Shown here one piece after another: positions 52,442 to 59,860 of a DNA stretch of 64,000 nucleotides (position 1 is its first letter; each line of letters starts with the position of its first letter). The notes beneath the pieces were generated by a model. The model made no database searches. It was not told the origin of the DNA and worked only from the letters and a program-made list of their open reading frames with translations. Both the position numbers and the translations under genes were made by a program. The stretch spans positions 3,743,001 through 3,807,000 of the forward strand of contig NZ_JAUTBJ010000002.1 of the NCBI RefSeq assembly GCF_030819175.1, read 5' to 3'. The stretch is from Sphingomonas sp. SORGH_AS_0879 (lineage in GTDB: Bacteria; Pseudomonadota; Alphaproteobacteria; Sphingomonadales; Sphingomonadaceae).

Positions 52442-52898
52442 CGCATAGGGGGCCGCTCCGGCGGATCGGCCCCCAACACCCGGCTCCGGACGGTCGCCTT
52501 TGCGGGATTTGACGGGCTCAGCCGGCGGGTTGTGCGGTGTTCCAAGTAGCTCCGGGGCCCTGCCGACTGGAAAATCCATTCGAGAAGACAATGGGCTCGC
52601 ACTCGACAACGCTCCGAACATGCGCCCCGCAAACCAACGGCAGGTTTGAGGATTCTCGATCAGGCTAGGAACGACTGGGACTGGGGCGCACTGCGGCCGG
52701 TCTGCTCAATGAGGTTGGAATGGCGGGTTTCGGCGTGAGCAGCCGCCCAATGCGCGCGTTGGAACGGCTTGAGCTGGTCGAAAGTGGACTGGCTGGCGGT
52801 CGATTGAACGCTGTCGTCCCGTCGACCGCCAGCGATGTGCTAGCCCTGTCAGCGTTGATGGTACGCACACCTTACGCACCAATGAGGCTGACGACGCC
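52442..52898. other. Gene-free stretch between phosphoesterase and the 52.9-55.8 kb genes
   Basis: About 455 bases. Short frames exist on both strands (for example 52720-52944) but none has a ribosome binding site or recognisable sequence. It probably marks the edge of the mobilisable element further right. Confidence 0.4.
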
Positions 52899-53438
52899 TC
52901 ACGCTGCCGCCCGCACCACGTCCGTCGGTATCGCGTCGGCGTAGCTGCCCCCGGCGGGGATGAAGAGGGAACCGTGCAATTCGATGCCGCGCATCTGATC
53001 CGCGGCTTCCCGCCAGCGCCGGTGCGCGCGTTCGATGCCGCGTTTGATCCGGCTGCGGGACGGCAGCGGCGACGCGGTCAGGATGGCGCGTGGCCCGACC
53101 GACCAGCGATGCGTGTCGCTGAGCAGTTCGATGACCCCGTCGTCGCTGGCGAGGTAGGGCTGCACGTCCGCGTGCCAGTCGACAAGGATGTTGCCGCGGG
53201 TGGCGAGCGAGATGCCGACCGGCCCGTCGGCGATGGGCAGGTCGAATTGAACCAGCACGAAGTCGCGGTTGGTCTGCTCGACGATGGCGGCGATCTCGAG
53301 CGCCTCGGCGAAGTTCTTGCGCCCGCCCGAGGCGTAGCTGATCGGATTGCCGATGGGCGCATATTGCGGATAGCCCATGGCGAGGCGCAGGCCGACGGTC
53401 CAGGCCTGCATCGTGTCCATCGATTCAATGACGCTCAT
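52899..53438 (-). CDS. Hypothetical protein (179 aa), last gene of the DEDD-like cluster
   Basis: Begins MSVIESMDTMQAWTVGLRLA and is soluble, with a beta-rich middle (DFVLVQFDLPIADGPVGISL, GNILVDWHADVQPYL). A basic segment follows (SRIKRGIERAHRRWREAADQ). No family was recognised. It follows the exonuclease-like gene by about 50 bases and is probably co-transcribed with the three genes upstream. Confidence 0.65.
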   Translation of the reverse strand: MSVIESMDTMQAWTVGLRLAMGYPQYAPIGNPISYASGGRKNFAEALEIAAIVEQTNRDFVLVQFDLPIADGPVGISLATRGNILVDWHADVQPYLASDDGVIELLSDTHRWSVGPRAILTASPLPSRSRIKRGIERAHRRWREAADQMRGIELHGSLFIPAGGSYADAIPTDVVRAAA

Positions 53439-53490
53439 ATCGTTGATCCTTCTTTCTTTTCCGCCCCTTCGAAGAGGCCATCATCACGGC

Positions 53491-54354
53491 TCAGTTGCAG
53501 GCCGAGGCTCCCAGGGTTTCCAGTTTGCGGGCTTCCGCCGCGAAGGTCGCGGCGAGCAGGTCGTCGGCGTAGCGCTGCCAGTCGGATGCGTAGGGGCGGT
53601 GGGCGCAATGCTCGGCGACGAAGCCGGTCAGCCGCCGCATTGCCTCCAGGACGGAGGCGGTGCCGCCGGATAAGTGGCGCCAGCGCATCAGCAGTGCCGC
53701 CGTGCTCAGTACGTCCCCCTCCGCGACCGAGCGGACCGCCGACCACTTGCCCTGCTGCATCAATTGCGAGACGAGGTCCGGCCGACAGGTCAGCTTGCCC
53801 GGGATGCCCAGCCGGGCGGCGATCTCGGCAAGGTGCGCGGGTGCGGCCCCGCCGCACATTTCGCTGCAAAGGTCGAGATGGCCCGATGCGTCGCGTCGCC
53901 ACGGCGACAACAGGCCGGTGAGGCAAGACGGCAGCTGCAACCCGGCGTCGATCGCCCCGATCAGGATTTGCGGCAGGTCGGAATGGAATCCGCCCCAGGT
54001 GACGAGCTGGACATGGCCAAGCTGTTCCATGTCGGCGAAGAAGGCCTTCAGGACAGCGGCTTCGTCCTGTTCCGGCAGGCCGCGCGTTTCCAGCCGCACC
54101 GGGCGCAGGCCGTCTTCCGCCTCGATCATCACCAGCCACGACAGGGTGGTGATCCGATGGCACGGCCAGCGCGGCGTCACGCGTGGGTCGGTACGCAGTT
54201 CGCGCGGCGACAGATGCGCGGCATCGGCGGGCAGGAAACGCTCGCTCGCCTGATAGCGGGCGTGCGCTTCATGGTCATAGGCGAGTTCGGCATCAAGGAC
54301 GACGACGAAGCGCGGCGTGTTGCTCTTCCAGAGCGAGGTCAGGTCGTGGTGCAT
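53491..54354 (-). CDS. DEDD-type 3'-5' exonuclease-like protein (PolB exonuclease-related)
   Basis: The 287-residue protein resembles the predicted 3'-5' exonucleases related to the exonuclease domain of family B polymerases. ExoI is seen as FVVVLDAELAYD (D-x-E), ExoII as LVTWGGFHSDLPQIL with its aspartate, and ExoIII as VAEGDVLSTAALLMRWRHL with its aspartate. The start MHHDLTSLW at 54354 is supported by GGAG 9 bases upstream. It is likely cytosolic and may act on DNA or RNA ends in element maintenance (inference). Two genes just upstream may be diverged relatives. Confidence 0.7.
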   Translation of the reverse strand: MHHDLTSLWKSNTPRFVVVLDAELAYDHEAHARYQASERFLPADAAHLSPRELRTDPRVTPRWPCHRITTLSWLVMIEAEDGLRPVRLETRGLPEQDEAAVLKAFFADMEQLGHVQLVTWGGFHSDLPQILIGAIDAGLQLPSCLTGLLSPWRRDASGHLDLCSEMCGGAAPAHLAEIAARLGIPGKLTCRPDLVSQLMQQGKWSAVRSVAEGDVLSTAALLMRWRHLSGGTASVLEAMRRLTGFVAEHCAHRPYASDWQRYADDLLAATFAAEARKLETLGASACN

Positions 54355-54403
54355 GGTGGTTCTCCGGCGGGCGCGCGCGCGGCCGCATGTCGATGGGGAT
54401 TGG

Positions 54404-55060
54404 TCAGCGGGTGGCGGGCTGCTCGCCGCGCCAGCGATCCAGCGCCTTGAGCGCGACTTGTGCGGGGTGGTCGGAGTCGTCGAAATCGCCGAATAGTCGT
54501 GCCCAGCACTGCCATCCGGCGATGGCCTCGCCGACCAGTTCGACTGCGGTGGTCGCCGGGTCCGGCAGCAGCGCGGTCGGCGTGGCCGCGTCGCATTCGT
54601 CGACGGGAGTGCCGGGGCGGCAGATGCACGGCATGAGATGCGCACGTGCCTGATGCATATGCCACGTGTGCCCGCGCGGCATGTCACGCCATCGCCCGGC
54701 CGTGTCGCCAGCGGCGGTGATGATGCGCGGATGACGCGCAGGATCGGCGAGCGCCAGCAGTCGGTGGGGGACGCGGCCCCAATTGTCCCAGCTTATTGCG
54801 GCGCCGGTCGCGGGGATGCGCTGCTCCAGCCAGTCGAGCAGATCGCCGACGGTGTCCCCTTCACCCAGGCAGCGGGCATCGGCGGAGAACTGGTAACCGC
54901 CACCATCATCCGCCACGACGGTGAGGATGCCGACGCCGCAGAGGATGCGGGCGTCCGGTCGGTGGCGGGCGGCGGGACAGGCGCCGATGGTGCGCACGGC
55001 GAGCGCGATCGACGCGGGCGCGAAACCGCGCTCCTCGATCGATAGATCAATGAGAGACAT
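54404..55060 (-). CDS. Hypothetical protein (218 aa), possible non-catalytic DEDD-fold relative
   Basis: Starts MSLIDLSIEERGFAPASIAL with AGGAAA before the ATG. The block GDLLDWLEQRIPATGAAISW, DNWGRVPHRLLALA aligns by eye with the ExoII region of the exonuclease-like neighbour, but the ExoII aspartate is replaced and no ExoI D-x-E is visible. If the relation is real, the protein has lost catalysis. The C-terminal half, with MPCICRPGTPVDECD, is unrecognised. Confidence 0.6.
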   Translation of the reverse strand: MSLIDLSIEERGFAPASIALAVRTIGACPAARHRPDARILCGVGILTVVADDGGGYQFSADARCLGEGDTVGDLLDWLEQRIPATGAAISWDNWGRVPHRLLALADPARHPRIITAAGDTAGRWRDMPRGHTWHMHQARAHLMPCICRPGTPVDECDAATPTALLPDPATTAVELVGEAIAGWQCWARLFGDFDDSDHPAQVALKALDRWRGEQPATR

Positions 55061-55100
55061 AGTTTTTCCTGGAGGTTGGCCGCGATGCGGCCGGGTTCGA

Positions 55101-55754
55101 TCAGTCGGCGGCGGACAGCAGGTCCGCGACATGGAGCCGGGTGGCGGCGCAATCGGCTTCGCCCAGCCATTCGGCGAAGTGGCTGCTTATGGCCGTAGCG
55201 ATGCTGCGGCCGACCGGATTCACCTTGGCGAGACGGCGTATGACCAGTCTGAACGTGGCGATCGCGTCGACCTGTGCGTCCTGCTCGATCTCGGCGACAT
55301 TGGACTGCACCCAGTCAGCGAAGCGCCGGTTCGGATCGACCGGCGCACACAGGATCTGCGAATGGACGCAGGCTTCCTGGAGGGTCAGCGGCCCATCGTC
55401 GACGCTGGCCGACAGATCGAGCAGATATTGCTGGCCGCAGCCCGCCAGCGCGCGGAGGGCGGGCGACCATTCGGCGCCGGGCAGCCGATCGAGCAGTGCG
55501 ATGGCGTCCTTCATGCGATAGCCGGTAATCGTCGCGCCTTCGGTCGTCAGGCGTTGGTCGAGCCACGCCAGCAGCGCGTCGGCGGGGTCCGATGGTCGCA
55601 AGATGTAGCTGTCGAGCGAGAAGTGGACTGTCGGACCTTGCAGGCGGGCGGTCAGGACGGCAGCGCCGATGGGTATCTGCCGATCAAGGCCGAGCCGATG
55701 GCCGACGTCGAGGGCCGCGACGTTCACGGTGGTGATGGTTGGTGTGGGAAGCAT
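55101..55754 (-). CDS. Hypothetical protein (217 aa), possible second DEDD-fold relative
   Basis: Starts MLPTPTITTVNVAALDVGHR with GGAG 9 bases upstream. ALLAWLDQRLTTEGATITGY, RMKDAIALLDRL parallels the ExoII region of the downstream exonuclease-like protein, and QVDAIATFRLVIRRLAKV its ExoIII region, each keeping an aspartate. The ExoI pair is degenerate (LDVGH). It heads the four-gene run and is preceded by a 10 bp inverted repeat. The family is otherwise unknown to me. Confidence 0.6.
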   Translation of the reverse strand: MLPTPTITTVNVAALDVGHRLGLDRQIPIGAAVLTARLQGPTVHFSLDSYILRPSDPADALLAWLDQRLTTEGATITGYRMKDAIALLDRLPGAEWSPALRALAGCGQQYLLDLSASVDDGPLTLQEACVHSQILCAPVDPNRRFADWVQSNVAEIEQDAQVDAIATFRLVIRRLAKVNPVGRSIATAISSHFAEWLGEADCAATRLHVADLLSAAD

Positions 55755-55775
55755 AGGGCAGTGCTCCATGCGCGC

Positions 55776-55816
55776 ATCCTCGCCCCCATGCCGCGCGAAG
55801 CGGCTAGGGCGAGGAT
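55776..55816. promoter_or_regulatory. Perfect 10 bp inverted repeat upstream of the DEDD-like cluster
   Basis: ATCCTCGCCC (55776-55785) and GGGCGAGGAT (55807-55816) are exact inverted copies 21 bases apart, 22 bases before the first gene's start. It may be an operator or a leader hairpin. Confidence 0.4.
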
Positions 55817-56057
55817 ATGCGGACGGTGAGGATGACCGGCAGGGCCGATCGACGACGAAAATTCTGACGAGGGCCGAGCCGACGGATGCCGACCCTGTTT
55901 TTCCCTTCTTTCAGAACCTTCGCATCGTCCGTCCGTTAGGATCAGCGCCCGCAGCGCCGTTTTCTATGCCGCTAGCATGGCGGTGCCGTCCGAAAGCCTT
56001 CCAGACTGTCGCAATCCGTTAAGGATTGGGCTATAGCTTGAGATGGCCTGTGGGAGT

Positions 56058-56263
56058 CTGTCCTGTGGGCCGGGGCGTGGAAACCCCGCAAACAGAGCCG
56101 GCCGAAAGGCCAAGGTTTACAGGACCTAGTTCTGTGACCGGGTGGCGGACGCGTATGTCCAGAGCCGCCCGGCTTAAAGGCGTTCGCGCCTGTCTGTTTG
56201 CAGGTTTCCAACATTCCGGTCTCCAGAAGGCCGGCACCCTGGGTTCAACGGGGTGCCGCCGGC
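56058..56263 (+). ncRNA. Densely structured leader or small RNA upstream of the subtilase gene
   Basis: At least five strong hairpins fit in about 205 bases. An outer stem GTCCTGT / ACAGGAC (56060-56066 with 56119-56125) encloses CGGGG-loop-CCCCG (56071-56088) and GGCC-GAAA-GGCC (56100-56111), the latter closed further by AAAC/GTTT. Next is a 13 bp stem (CCGGGTGGC at 56138-56146 with GCCGCCCGG at 56164-56172, plus inner GGAC/GTCC). GGCG-TTCG-CGCC follows (56179-56190), and finally GGCACCC / GGGTGCC (56233-56257) with a GCC/GGC extension. GNRA and UUCG tetraloops and a multibranch closing stem suggest a folded RNA and not coding sequence. It ends about 33 bases before the protease start. No known riboswitch consensus was recognised. 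Confidence 0.55.
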
Positions 56264-56295
56264 TGTCCAGCGCGCATCCCCATCGAGGAATGAAG

Positions 56296-58692
56296 ATGGT
56301 CGGGATACGGGGGATCAGAGCGGCGTCAGCGAGCATGTTGGCGTTGACGATCGCCGCCTGCGGGGGCGGCGGCGGGATCAGCAGTGCGGGCAGCGTAGCG
56401 ACGCCACCGCCGACTGGCGGCTCGACGCCGACGCCCAGTCCATCACCAACGCCGACGCCTGCGCCAAGTCCGACACCGTCGCCGAGCCCCACGCCGTCGC
56501 CGAGTCCGTCACCGACGCCGTCACCTACGCCCACGCCGACACCGGCTCCCACGCCAACGCCAACGCCAACGCCAACGCCAACGCCAACGCCAACGCCAAC
56601 GCCGCCGGTCTATTCGGCGCCGGTGCCGCCGCCGGCGGGATACGTAATTACCCCATCGGACAAGCAGCCGGTCCGCTCGGTCAACGACACGCCTGAGTTC
56701 CGCCGCAACTACGGCGCTAACGAGTTCATGAACGCCCTCTATGCGCTCGACAGCGGGCACATGGGCCAGGGTGTCACCGTCGCCGTGGTCGACGACGGCG
56801 TCATGAACGTGAACGGCGAGCTCGACGGCCGCATCGACCAGACGCTGTCGAAGGACTTCGGCTATGTCGTGGCCGCCGACGGCACGCGGACGAAGCGGAG
56901 CGAGTTGGGCAGCGCGGCGTCCGACCACGGGACGGCGGTCGCCAACATCATTGCCGCTAGGGTCAATGGCAACGCGACTGCCGGCTACGCCCCGTCCGCG
57001 ACGATCGTCGCGCTGCGGGTCGCCGACTGGGACGAGAAAACGCAAGGCGAGATTCTGTCGCACACCGATGAGGCCATCCGCTATGCGGCGGACAAGGGCA
57101 TCAAGATCGTCAGCAGCTCGCTGGTCGGCGGCAGCGCGGGCTGGACCTCAGCGACCGAACGGCTGGCGACGACGGGTGGCCTGCTCGTCAACTCGACCGG
57201 CAATTTCGGTGGCGCTGACCCCTATAATGCGCAGTGGATCACCACCGATAACCGCAAGGCGGTCCTGTTCGTCGGCGCACTCAGCCCGGCGCTGAACAAG
57301 TACGAGATCGAGGCCTATTCCAACAAGGCGGGCACGATGAAGGACCGCACCGTCGTCGCGGTCGGCGCCAATGTGACGACGCTGGTCGACGGCACGGTCG
57401 GCGTCTTCTCCGGCACCAGCTCGGCGGCGCCGGTGGTGGCAGGACTCGCCGCCGACATCCTGTCGAAATGGCCGCAGCTGTCCGGCCAGCAGGCGGGTGA
57501 CGTCATCCTTCAGACCGCCAAGGACATCGGCGCGCCGGGGCCGGACGAGGTGTTCGGCATGGGGCTGGTCGACTTCCAGGCGGCGCTGTCGCCGGTCAAT
57601 CCGAAACTTTCGAACGGCAGCACCCAGACCAGCATCGCCAAGTCCGTGATGGTGGTGCCGGGTGCCGTCGGCACCGCTGCGATCCAGACAGCGCTGTCCC
57701 ATGTCACTGTGCTCGACGCCTTTGGCCGTGACTTCACCGGCTCGATCGCCGCGCTGGTCGTCCAGCCGCAGGTCATGGCGGACCGCCGGATCGAACGTCG
57801 CGTCCGGCAGATGGGGCAGCAGGCGAGCCTAGCGTTCGGCGGCTTCAGCGGCACCATGGGCTATACCAGCGTCCGCTTCGGTCCCGGCCAGGATCAGGTC
57901 CGGTCCGCAGCGACGGCGGGGACCTTCGGCTATACCGACGGGACGACCGGGGTGCATGCGGCGTGGAATGCCGGCGATATGCTCCAAGCGGACGTGATGG
58001 GGCTGGCGCCTTTCGCCGATGGTGTGCTCGCCTATGTCCCGCAGGCCGGGACCAGCCTCAGCATCGATCGGGCGGTCGGTGGCGGGCGGCTCGGGCTGAC
58101 CATGGCGGCGGGTCGTGCCGCCGGTAGCGCCGCGCAGGCGATGACGCTGGCCTGGAGTCGTGGTGACCTCGATCTGCGCGCCTCGTACATCGACGAGGAC
58201 GGCACGCTGATGGGCATGCCGACCGGCAGTGGCGCGCTGCGGCTGGGACGCGGTGCCCGCACGGTGATGGTCGAGATGCATCACCGGATCGGCGTGACCG
58301 ATGGCTGGTCGCTGGAGGGCTATGGCTCGCTGGGCATGACCCGGCTGAAGATCGACGCCGCCTCGCTCGTCACCGGCGCCACCCCGATCCTCGGCAGCCG
58401 GGTCGGCGTGCAGGCGAGCGGCGTGGTGCCTGGCGGCCTGCTGACGCTGGGGATCGCGCAGCCGCTCGCCATCGAGGCGGGGGCGGCAGAGCTGACGCTG
58501 GGCACCGGCTACGACCTTGCGACCCGCTCGGTCATGTACGGCGTCACCCGCGCCAGCCTTGCCGGAGCCCGCCGCGTCCAGCTGACCGCCGGGTACGTCA
58601 CCCGCACCGCCATGCCGCTCCGCCTAGGCGTCATGCACGACGTCACCGACGGCTCCGTCGCCGCGCTCGTCGGCTGGCACACCGGCTTCTGA
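56296..58692 (+). CDS. Lipoprotein-type S8 subtilase with PT-repeat linker and C-terminal beta-rich domain
   Basis: The 798-residue protein starts [20 protein letters not shown] and has a lipobox (IAAC, then a glycine run), so it is probably anchored in the outer membrane. A Pro/Thr/Ser repeat linker spans about residues 30-110. The subtilisin domain has Asp166 (AVVDDGV), His211 (SDHGTAVAN), the oxyanion asparagine in STGNFGG and Ser375 ([11 protein letters not shown]). The last 250 residues are beta-rich and end in GWHTGF with a terminal phenylalanine, like an autotransporter barrel or a reduced version of one. The start at 56296 has GAGGA 6-7 bases before it; the ATG at 56290 is too close. 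A structured leader precedes the gene. Confidence 0.88.
56551..56603 (+). repeat. Hexanucleotide microsatellite (ACGCCA)n in the subtilase linker
   Basis: Nearly nine perfect ACGCCA units in a row encode (Pro-Thr)n in the linker. Because the unit is six bases, slippage changes linker length without breaking the frame. Confidence 0.9.
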
Positions 58693-58721
58693 TCCGACCG
58701 ATATCACAGGGAGAGAACCAC

Positions 58722-59465
58722 ATGCGTTTGACCATTGCGCTCGTCATCGGGCTGGCCGCCGTGCCCGCTGCCGCACAGCGGGCACCGATCACCAAGTTGC
58801 TCGATAAAATACCATCCGTCTTCGGCAGTAGACCGACGCAACCCGTCATCACCATGCCGGCCACACCCGTCATTCTCGGTCTGACGCGCGCTGCCGAACG
58901 CAGCGTTGCGGGTGATCCGGTGACCTTCGATCTCGGCGGCTTCCGCCTCGGCATGAGCGAGGCGGAGGTGTCCGAAGTCGCGATGTCCCGTAAGTTGATC
59001 ACCAAGGGCGCTACTCGTTTCGTCGACTTCGAAGGCCAGGTTCGCAGTGCGATCAATATCGCGGGTGGCGCTGGTGGAGCCCCGATTCGACGCAGCGTCC
59101 TCGGCGAGGCGACGCTTCAGGACGATGCGGGCGGGCGATATATGCTGCGGATGCTCGTCTGGCCGGATGGATCGCACCTGTCCGGGATCACCTATATCGC
59201 GCCACAAGGTACGGCGGCCGCCGAATGGCGGCAGATGCTCGTCACCAAATGGGGTGCGCCCCATCAGGAGAGCGGCCGTGACACCTTCTCCGCGCGCTGG
59301 GGAAAGGCCGGGCTGGATGGCTACCACGCCGACGCCGACGTCGGACTTCGTGGTGGTACGGTCGGCATTGGTTCCCCCGATGGATCATCCCAACGGCCAG
59401 CCGCGCTGGTGGCACAAGCGACTGATGCCTTCATCGCTGCCCGCGCCAGGAAGCCGACGCTGTGA
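58722..59465 (+). CDS. Exported hypothetical protein (247 aa)
   Basis: A signal peptide (MRLTIALVIGLAAVPAAA then Q) and a mature domain containing FDLGGFRLGMSEAEVSEVAM suggest a periplasmic protein. The phrase resembles the start of small periplasmic repeat proteins that read LGMSEAEV, but no family can be named with confidence. GGGAGAG lies before the ATG. It follows the subtilase by about 30 bases and overlaps the lipoprotein gene, so the three may be one operon. Confidence 0.75.
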   Translation: MRLTIALVIGLAAVPAAAQRAPITKLLDKIPSVFGSRPTQPVITMPATPVILGLTRAAERSVAGDPVTFDLGGFRLGMSEAEVSEVAMSRKLITKGATRFVDFEGQVRSAINIAGGAGGAPIRRSVLGEATLQDDAGGRYMLRMLVWPDGSHLSGITYIAPQGTAAAEWRQMLVTKWGAPHQESGRDTFSARWGKAGLDGYHADADVGLRGGTVGIGSPDGSSQRPAALVAQATDAFIAARARKPTL

Positions 59466-59860
59466 TGCCCGCTGCAATGAGGATGTCGTTGATGAATCGC
59501 TTCGTTATCCTGGCGATCGGCTGCGTCAGCGTGGGTGCCTGCTCGAAGACCGAAAAGCCTGAGGATGTCGCCCGCGCGTTCATCGTCGACAATGCGGCCG
59601 GGCGAGGTGCCGAGGTGCTGGAGCGGATCGACCCCGCTGTTCGCCCTCTCGCGGGGATGATGGTGGCGGCCGCGCCCAAGACGGCCACATCCGGTCCACC
59701 GCCTCATGGCGGCATCAAGACGGTAGAAGTGCTCGACACCAAGACCGTCGATCCCGATTATGCTATCGTTGAGACGGTATCGCATTTCGGTGACGGCACC
59801 GAGGTGAGCCGGACCGCGAAGCTGCGTCGTGTCGATGGCAAGTGGTACATCACCATGTGA
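59465..59860 (+). CDS. Small lipoprotein with DUF4878-like fold
   Basis: The protein has a short signal with lipobox (FVILAIGCVSVGAC then SK). The mature part, EDVARAFIVDNAAGRGAEVL then VETVSHFGDGTEVSRTAKLR and VDGKWYITM, looks like the NTF2-like domain of DUF4878 lipoproteins. Starts at 59462 (GTG), 59465 and 59492 (MNRFVILAIG) are in frame; the ATG at 59465 overlaps the preceding stop (TGATG). It converges with the relaxase gene. Confidence 0.7.
   Translation: MPAAMRMSLMNRFVILAIGCVSVGACSKTEKPEDVARAFIVDNAAGRGAEVLERIDPAVRPLAGMMVAAAPKTATSGPPPHGGIKTVEVLDTKTVDPDYAIVETVSHFGDGTEVSRTAKLRRVDGKWYITM

Follow-up and report, generated by a model that had tools for sequence, protein, structure and literature searches.

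The window analysed here, a stretch of 64,000 nucleotides from Sphingomonas sp. SORGH_AS_0879, contains a conserved noncoding RNA of approximately 195 nt in the leader of a subtilase gene (Table 1). The start codon of this gene is likely the ATG at 56296, or that at 56290. Within the gene, a long Pro/Thr/Ser repeat linker (approximately 56417-56610), whose length differs among paralogs, joins a lipoprotein-like signal to the protease domain. A promoter scan found no consensus sigma-70 promoter. Terminator-like sites were found at 56178-56191 (+) and 56098-56113 (-), and the scan gave none on the + strand between strand b1 and the core. The Rfam scan of the window returned no family at threshold; the original prediction, made from the sequence alone, had recognised no known class. 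In 40 related loci nothing reached threshold on the RNA, tRNA and cobalamin matches lying elsewhere in those loci.

Table 1. Features of the RNA and of the gene behind it, in window positions.
Feature	Position	Strand	Basis or remark
Whole conserved RNA	56069..56265	+	Model extent (R1, 168.7 bits; R2, 147.6 bits); equals L001:1530-1726
5' hairpin A (CGGGG / CCCCG), displays loop a1	56071..56088	+	Helix A pairing in alignments
Loop a1, TGGAAA	56078-56083	+	Within hairpin A
Strand b1, GCAAACAGA, hypervariable, pairs with b'	56088..56096	+	Exact complement of b' in the window
Variable linker with GAAA hairpin	56097..56136	+	Alignments
C4-like antisense core	56137..56220	+	Covariation of E, F and H
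Outer stem E of core	56137-56144 / 56212-56220	+	Covariation; 5' strand ACCGGGTG
Helix F of core, long-range, GCGGACGC with GCGTTCGC	56145-56152 / 56180-56187	+	Covariation
Conserved ATGTCCA in core	56155-56161	+	
TAAAG in core	56175-56179	+	
Hairpin H of core	56189-56192 / 56201-56204	+	Covariation
Loop strand b', TCTGTTTGC, in hairpin H	56193..56201	+	Complementary to b1
Strand a', TTTCCA, pairs with loop a1	56205..56210	+	Pseudoknot B
Terminal hairpin T, least uniform helix	56231..56263	+	Pairing in alignments
SD-like GAGGA before subtilase	56285-56289	+	
Downstream subtilase (Peptidase_S8) gene	56296..58692	+	PF00082, E = 3e-32

The region 56040-56295 had been predicted to be highly structured, and this was confirmed. 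Its minimum free energy on the + strand was -135.1 kcal/mol, compared with a mean of -105 (sd 5.4) for dinucleotide shuffles (z = -5.59, 0/200 shuffles as good). The opposite strand gave a weaker signal (z = -4.17, 0/200), and the core folded alone (56137-56220) was less remarkable (z = -1.83, 9/200). The minimum-energy fold does hold the GGCC-GAAA-GGCC hairpin, the UUCG-loop hairpin and the 13-pair stem that the original prediction had named.

The structure obtained from alignments of relatives differs from this minimum-energy fold. It consists of helices A (carrying loop a1), B (a1:a'), C (b1:b'), E, F, a small P2 hairpin, H (with loop b') and T, and is pseudoknotted, with E crossing B and C, and H crossing C. 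Covariation is strong. In alignment A3 (44 sequences) 96.5% of 2175 cells were paired, both sides had changed in 38 of the 51 pairs, and the covariation score was 0.547, against 0.171 when shuffled and 0.04-0.08 when slid. A further set, A9 (82 matches, 75 distinct), which may overlap the earlier species and has some rows near-identical to earlier plasmid copies, gave 94.9% of cells paired and a score of 0.556 against 0.165 (0/500 shuffles). It was drawn from 81 sources (78 of the 80 listed contig loci plus three viral ones, two loci being omitted for a match at the locus end) and was picked without using the a1, b1, b', a' or H strands; the search pattern fixes parts of E and F, and the alignment was fitted to R2 helices A, C, F, P2 and T, not to B, E or H. 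In A5, with 98 matches from wider taxa, 94.5% of cells were paired (covariation 0.621).

Pairing was high for most helices: pseudoknot B reached 99.1-99.2% of cells in A3 and the further set, E 99.0-99.7%, F 98.3-98.9% and H 95.2-100% across the same two, and the b1:b' helix 95.5%. Helices B, E, F and H are absent from the structure of R1, yet 98.9-99.7% of their cells are paired in A3. Helix A was paired in 97.7% of cells in A3, with both-side changes in four of its five pairs, and in 92.5% in the further set. The weakest helix is T, whose parts were 97.4, 94.1 and 63.3% paired in A3 (84.6% in the further set). Mean entropy was 1.87 bits for b1 and 1.83 for b', compared with 0.11 for ATGTCCA, 0.18 for UAAAG and 0.14 for E. 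In five relatives (L034, L040, L043, L045 and L051) the terminal-hairpin loop is GGACATA-like and could, judged by its letters, pair with the TATGTCC that is conserved in the core; a kissing contact is therefore possible in this subgroup.

Compensatory changes in homologues, which the original prediction had named as support for its case, are thus abundant in both A3 and the further set, and they bear out its proposal of a structured noncoding RNA in the subtilase leader, possibly also functioning as a small RNA in its own right. Its individual hairpins fared less well. The UUCG and 13-pair hairpins are contradicted as conserved structure by the long-range F and E pairing, and the GAAA hairpin, part of the variable linker, is not shared by the whole family. 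Because F pairs elsewhere and b' varies, we rejected both the UUCG hairpin and the site at 56178-56191 that resembles a terminator. The absence of a protein-like reading, also predicted, needs qualifying, as the subtilase frame is open in the window copy back to a TTG at 56026; however, it is closed in copies 3 and 4 (see below), and what is conserved is base pairing. Protein-coding conservation was rejected.

Of the Rfam families that fell short of threshold, sRNA-Xcc1 (RF02221) matched the window RNA best, over the full length and at 22.8 bits (E = 0.14), below the gathering score of 53 bits. No match to C4 (RF01695) at its gathering score of 45 bits was found in the own genome or in the window scan. 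Among 20 more distant relatives, selected from the wider class and phylum matches, RF02221 matched the RNA in six (29.6-37.2 bits). Conversely, with E values up to 1 allowed, R2 matched 7 of the 45 RF02221 and RF01695 loci. The match in L149 lies off the Rfam site, and the best two are in RF02221 loci (E = 0.0013 and 0.0022). Because R2 matches so few of these loci, the kinship rests largely on a shared layout, namely a hairpin with loop a1 and a strand b1, followed by a three-stem core whose b' loop is complementary to b1 and whose a' strand is complementary to a1. Read by eye, RF02221 and RF01695 loci have an a1 hairpin, b1, often a T-rich hairpin, the core, and often a second a/b before the start codon.

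The C4 antisense RNA of phages P1 and P7, of the kind with which phages silence antirepressor genes, has an upstream a1/b1. PMC5320573 describes C4 as three stem-loops processed by RNase P, with a b' loop over the ribosome-binding site and an a' loop for specificity, and a table in PMC2864571 contains both the c4 antisense RNA and a c4-a1b1 motif. The window RNA shares the three-stem core, and in it too the b' loop and the a' strand find their complements in a hairpin loop and a strand upstream; by covariation, E, the F/P2 hairpin and H form the C4 arrangement of an outer stem around two stem-loops, the second with the recognition loop. It differs from C4 in scoring below the Rfam threshold and in lacking a terminator-like site on the + strand between b1 and the core. 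In addition, phage relatives have a downstream target, whereas the window RNA has no a2/b2 before its gene, and C4 precedes an antirepressor, whereas the window RNA leads a cellular protease gene. With sRNA-Xcc1, an integron-cassette small RNA of Xanthomonas, it shares the order of outer stem, P2 and P3 and the upstream a1b1. It may also be likened, by description and not by sequence, to the CI RNA of phage P4, both having an antisense layout with complementary sites; PMC4825925 presents P4 CI with seqA/seqC as an antisense RNA that is processed from its own leader and pairs with up- and downstream sites, leading to transcription termination.

In phage APSE-7 a BRO-N gene is preceded by isrK and C4, annotated in tandem. 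Around TCCTTGTTAG, the core strand there has one match upstream, GCTAACAAGG, and one downstream, CTAACAAGGA, which directly precedes the start codon; GTCTCAA has TTGAGAC as its match on both sides (in that record the a' label precedes the b' label, opposite to our usage). RF02221 itself looks like a C4-type RNA, given its upstream a1/b1, its group-level downstream match and its position partly before antirepressor-type genes (L114-L143). Taken together, this layout makes kinship of the window RNA with phage C4 and sRNA-Xcc1 likely. It does not support a riboswitch or ribozyme, two of the kinds for which the original prediction had called such organisation typical, so that the interpretation given there is as a whole partly supported. 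Among the papers listed in searches on C4 antisense RNA, c4-a1b1 and Sphingomonadaceae, none appeared from its title to describe the RNA.

Complementarity between core and flanks was assessed by permuting loci within groups, since the single-locus test has low power (of 96 loci, 40 reached p≤0.05 on the upstream side and 9 on the downstream side). The groups were Sphingomonadaceae plus plasmids (n = 52), other Alphaproteobacteria (37), other Pseudomonadota (9), RF02221 (22, after 8 of 30 loci were dropped for short contigs) and RF01695 (13, after 2 of 15 were dropped likewise). Upstream, none of 2000 permutations was as good in any of the five groups. Downstream, 1873 of 2000 were as good in the Sphingomonadaceae group, the own locus ranking in the top tenth for 2 of 52, compared with 1/2000 in other Alphaproteobacteria, 83/2000 in other Pseudomonadota and 0/2000 in RF02221. 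For RF01695 the downstream count was 797/2000 with the first probe and 0/2000 after the core probe was widened and the target narrowed. Therefore a1/b1 is retained in the window subfamily but, in contrast to RF02221, no a2/b2 is seen at group level. Many phage-type relatives have this second target at the ribosome-binding site of the next gene, and relatives with a downstream match stand in part before phage antirepressor-type genes. Pairing of b' with the SD in the window was considered and rejected, there being no match.

A DNA search found seven copies of the RNA in the own genome (100, 94, 79 and 79% identity, plus three shorter), and R1 finds the same seven. Peptidase_S8 is encoded downstream of all seven. 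Comparison of the copies shows where they diverge. Copies 1 (the window) and 2 differ at eight RNA positions, 4/7 in b1 and 4/8 in b', which compensate so that complementarity is kept; no further RNA position differs, and flanking 60-nt bins carry 3 to 24 differences, mostly 3 to 9. Copies 3 and 4 differ at 6/7 positions of b1 and 6/8 of b', in one compensating pair in H and at 7/43 linker positions. Copies 5 and 6 differ at 4/8 and 3/8 positions of b1 and b', and elsewhere too, as do seven paralog pairs in other assemblies, all of which differ in b1/b'. The element thus combines a target copy (loop a1 and strand b1) with a 3' antisense core, the pairing being conserved as the letters of b1 and b' turn over. 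That the copies carry different b1/b' pairs suggests that every gene would respond to the RNA of its own leader. Simple duplex energies between copies did not bring out a clear preference for self, which was the best partner in only three of six rows.

These data bear on two other explanations. One is a purely cis-acting, riboswitch-like leader, in which pairing of a1b1 with the core is one of two exclusive folds, shifted by a ligand, protein or temperature, and the ribosome-binding site is opened or closed by the terminal hairpin. The strong conservation of ATGTCCA and UAAAG would suit it, and in L038, L042 and L049 the 3' strand of the terminal hairpin, by reading, has SD-like sequence directly before the start codon. 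However, a fixed aptamer needs no hypervariable b1 and b' that differ between near-identical paralogs, the layout and complementarity fit antisense RNAs, and the terminal hairpin in the window excludes the SD; we consider this explanation unlikely. The other, a trans-acting small RNA with remote targets for which the position before the subtilase is incidental, appears more doubtful still. When the own genome was searched, by exact pattern and for copies 1-4, for places where an a site and a b site lie no more than 30 nt apart, only the RNA's own sites came up, and the subtilase gene stands behind 7/7 copies; this is set against the core adjoining many unrelated genes, also on plasmids, and against sRNA-Xcc1, of the same layout, appearing in a table of PMC2996969 as a mapped 88-nt RNA.

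In copy 7 (L007) the RNA is reduced to its 3' part, a remnant reaching 1582 that is abutted by an IS110-type transposase gene (PF01548, PF02371; 411-1472, -). In L031 two RNA pieces (1-221 and 1501-1612) are split by a stretch 81.9% identical to that of L007 over 1062 nt. Since the 3' pieces of L007 and L031 start at the same conserved place before F', IS110 elements may use the RNA gene as a target site. The copy-6 subtilase gene (L006 1-1472, -) is apparently frameshifted: its reading is divided between two overlapping frames, and S8 falls in the second.

Relatives of the RNA are spread through Sphingomonadaceae and are sparser in other Pseudomonadota. R1 matched 65 of 199 genomes drawn from Sphingomonadaceae, in 48 of 96 genera. 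R2 matched 30/147 genomes at the level of the order, 29/289 of the class and 33/398 of the phylum, draws that overlap and all include the own genome. The core was found in 26 plasmid records at E = 0.01. A pattern of parts of E and F, ATGTCCA and YAAAGGCG occurred in at least 120 contig stretches; the 80 matches listed are, by title, mostly from Sphingomonadales genera, with exceptions such as a Phenylobacterium MAG. DNA similarity searches of a phage collection gave no relatives of the window RNA, and similarity searches of the same collection with two phage-type copies gave nothing or one short weak match.

The gene behind the RNA was scanned as one long ORF per locus, a mechanical choice in which some picks must be wrong. 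Among 50 such ORFs from Sphingomonadaceae and the plasmid set, six of them from the own genome, 13 encode sigma-70 region 4, seven a subtilase (S8) and four GGDEF. In other taxa (42 ORFs of 45 loci) the domains were HTH_3 (4), Phage_pRha (3), Bro-N (2), AntA (2), P22_AR_N (1) and ORF6N (1), and at RF02221 and RF01695 loci (31 ORFs) Bro-N (6), Phage_pRha (4), AntA (2), KilA-N (1) and P22_AR_N (1). A plasmid oriT was considered because two plasmid copies lie near relaxase genes, and was rejected because the remaining neighbours speak against it. Other RNA-like elements lie near some relatives. A Type II hammerhead ribozyme (L100 2924-2988, -; 66.4 bits) is approximately 1.2 kb from one, evenly spaced sub-threshold CRISPR-DR9 matches (L105 2803-3163, -), possibly a CRISPR array, are near a phage-type copy, and a cobalamin riboswitch match that ends at the locus end (L026 3086-3173, 40.5 bits) is downstream of another copy.

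The window RNA is part of a 6.7-kb unit (52774-59467) that occurs four times in the genome, the other copies being 88.7-91.5% identical. It contains an exonuclease-like gene (PF10108), genes without a Pfam match, the RNA, the subtilase and two small genes, and one match extends to 64000, past a MobA/MobL relaxase gene. The RNA might accordingly be seen as an immunity or decoy remnant of a mobile element, travelling with the duplicated module and protecting copies mutually or from related phages without regulating the subtilase. The fourfold unit, its extension past the relaxase gene, the relatives before phage-type genes and three IMG/VR contigs with the same core pattern are in line with such a role. 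Nevertheless, the three remaining RNA copies, which gave no match to the unit at E = 1e-10, have kept both RNA and subtilase, and the next ORFs in Sphingomonadaceae and plasmids include those of sigma factors, S8 proteases and GGDEF proteins; we regard this explanation as very improbable.

Our preferred reading, probable in our view though held with some reserve, is that the RNA represents a new subfamily of C4-type antisense RNAs, found mainly in Sphingomonadaceae, and is a cellular descendant of the phage type that forms the leader of a cellular gene and acts on its own leader with copy-specific recognition. By analogy with phage C4, in which RNase P does the processing, the core would be released as a small RNA of approximately 85-95 nt. 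Pairing with a1/b1 of the leader would follow, either in cis or by a core that stems from a separate transcript of that gene. We infer the regulatory outcome from the antisense RNAs of phages P1/P7 (C4) and P4 (CI), on which lowered expression is modelled: the pairing would reduce protease expression, probably through premature termination or reduced translation. Counting against this reading are the scores below both Rfam gathering values, the few RF02221 and RF01695 loci matched by R2, the lack of a2/b2, the duplex energies and the outcome of the promoter and terminator scan. A broader reading, which we offer more tentatively, is that of a domesticated phage immunity RNA. A target-plus-antisense leader lacking the phage target site would control surface proteases, sigma factors and diguanylate cyclases across Sphingomonadaceae, and divergence of b1/b' among paralogs would leave each gene regulated only by its own RNA.

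One layout now joins phage C4, Xanthomonas sRNA-Xcc1 and an unannotated alphaproteobacterial leader RNA, which were formerly kept apart. Moreover, the copies provide a natural series of RNAs in which paired recognition strands diverge and the remainder stays fixed. The sRNA-Xcc1 found beside symE is left as a divergent regulatory mechanism in a 2025 paper (PMC12444791); if regulation by the window RNA is confirmed, it would suggest, by analogy, how sRNA-Xcc1 acts there. It would also mean that a lysogeny switch of phages has found a second use in the control of cell-surface and signalling genes.
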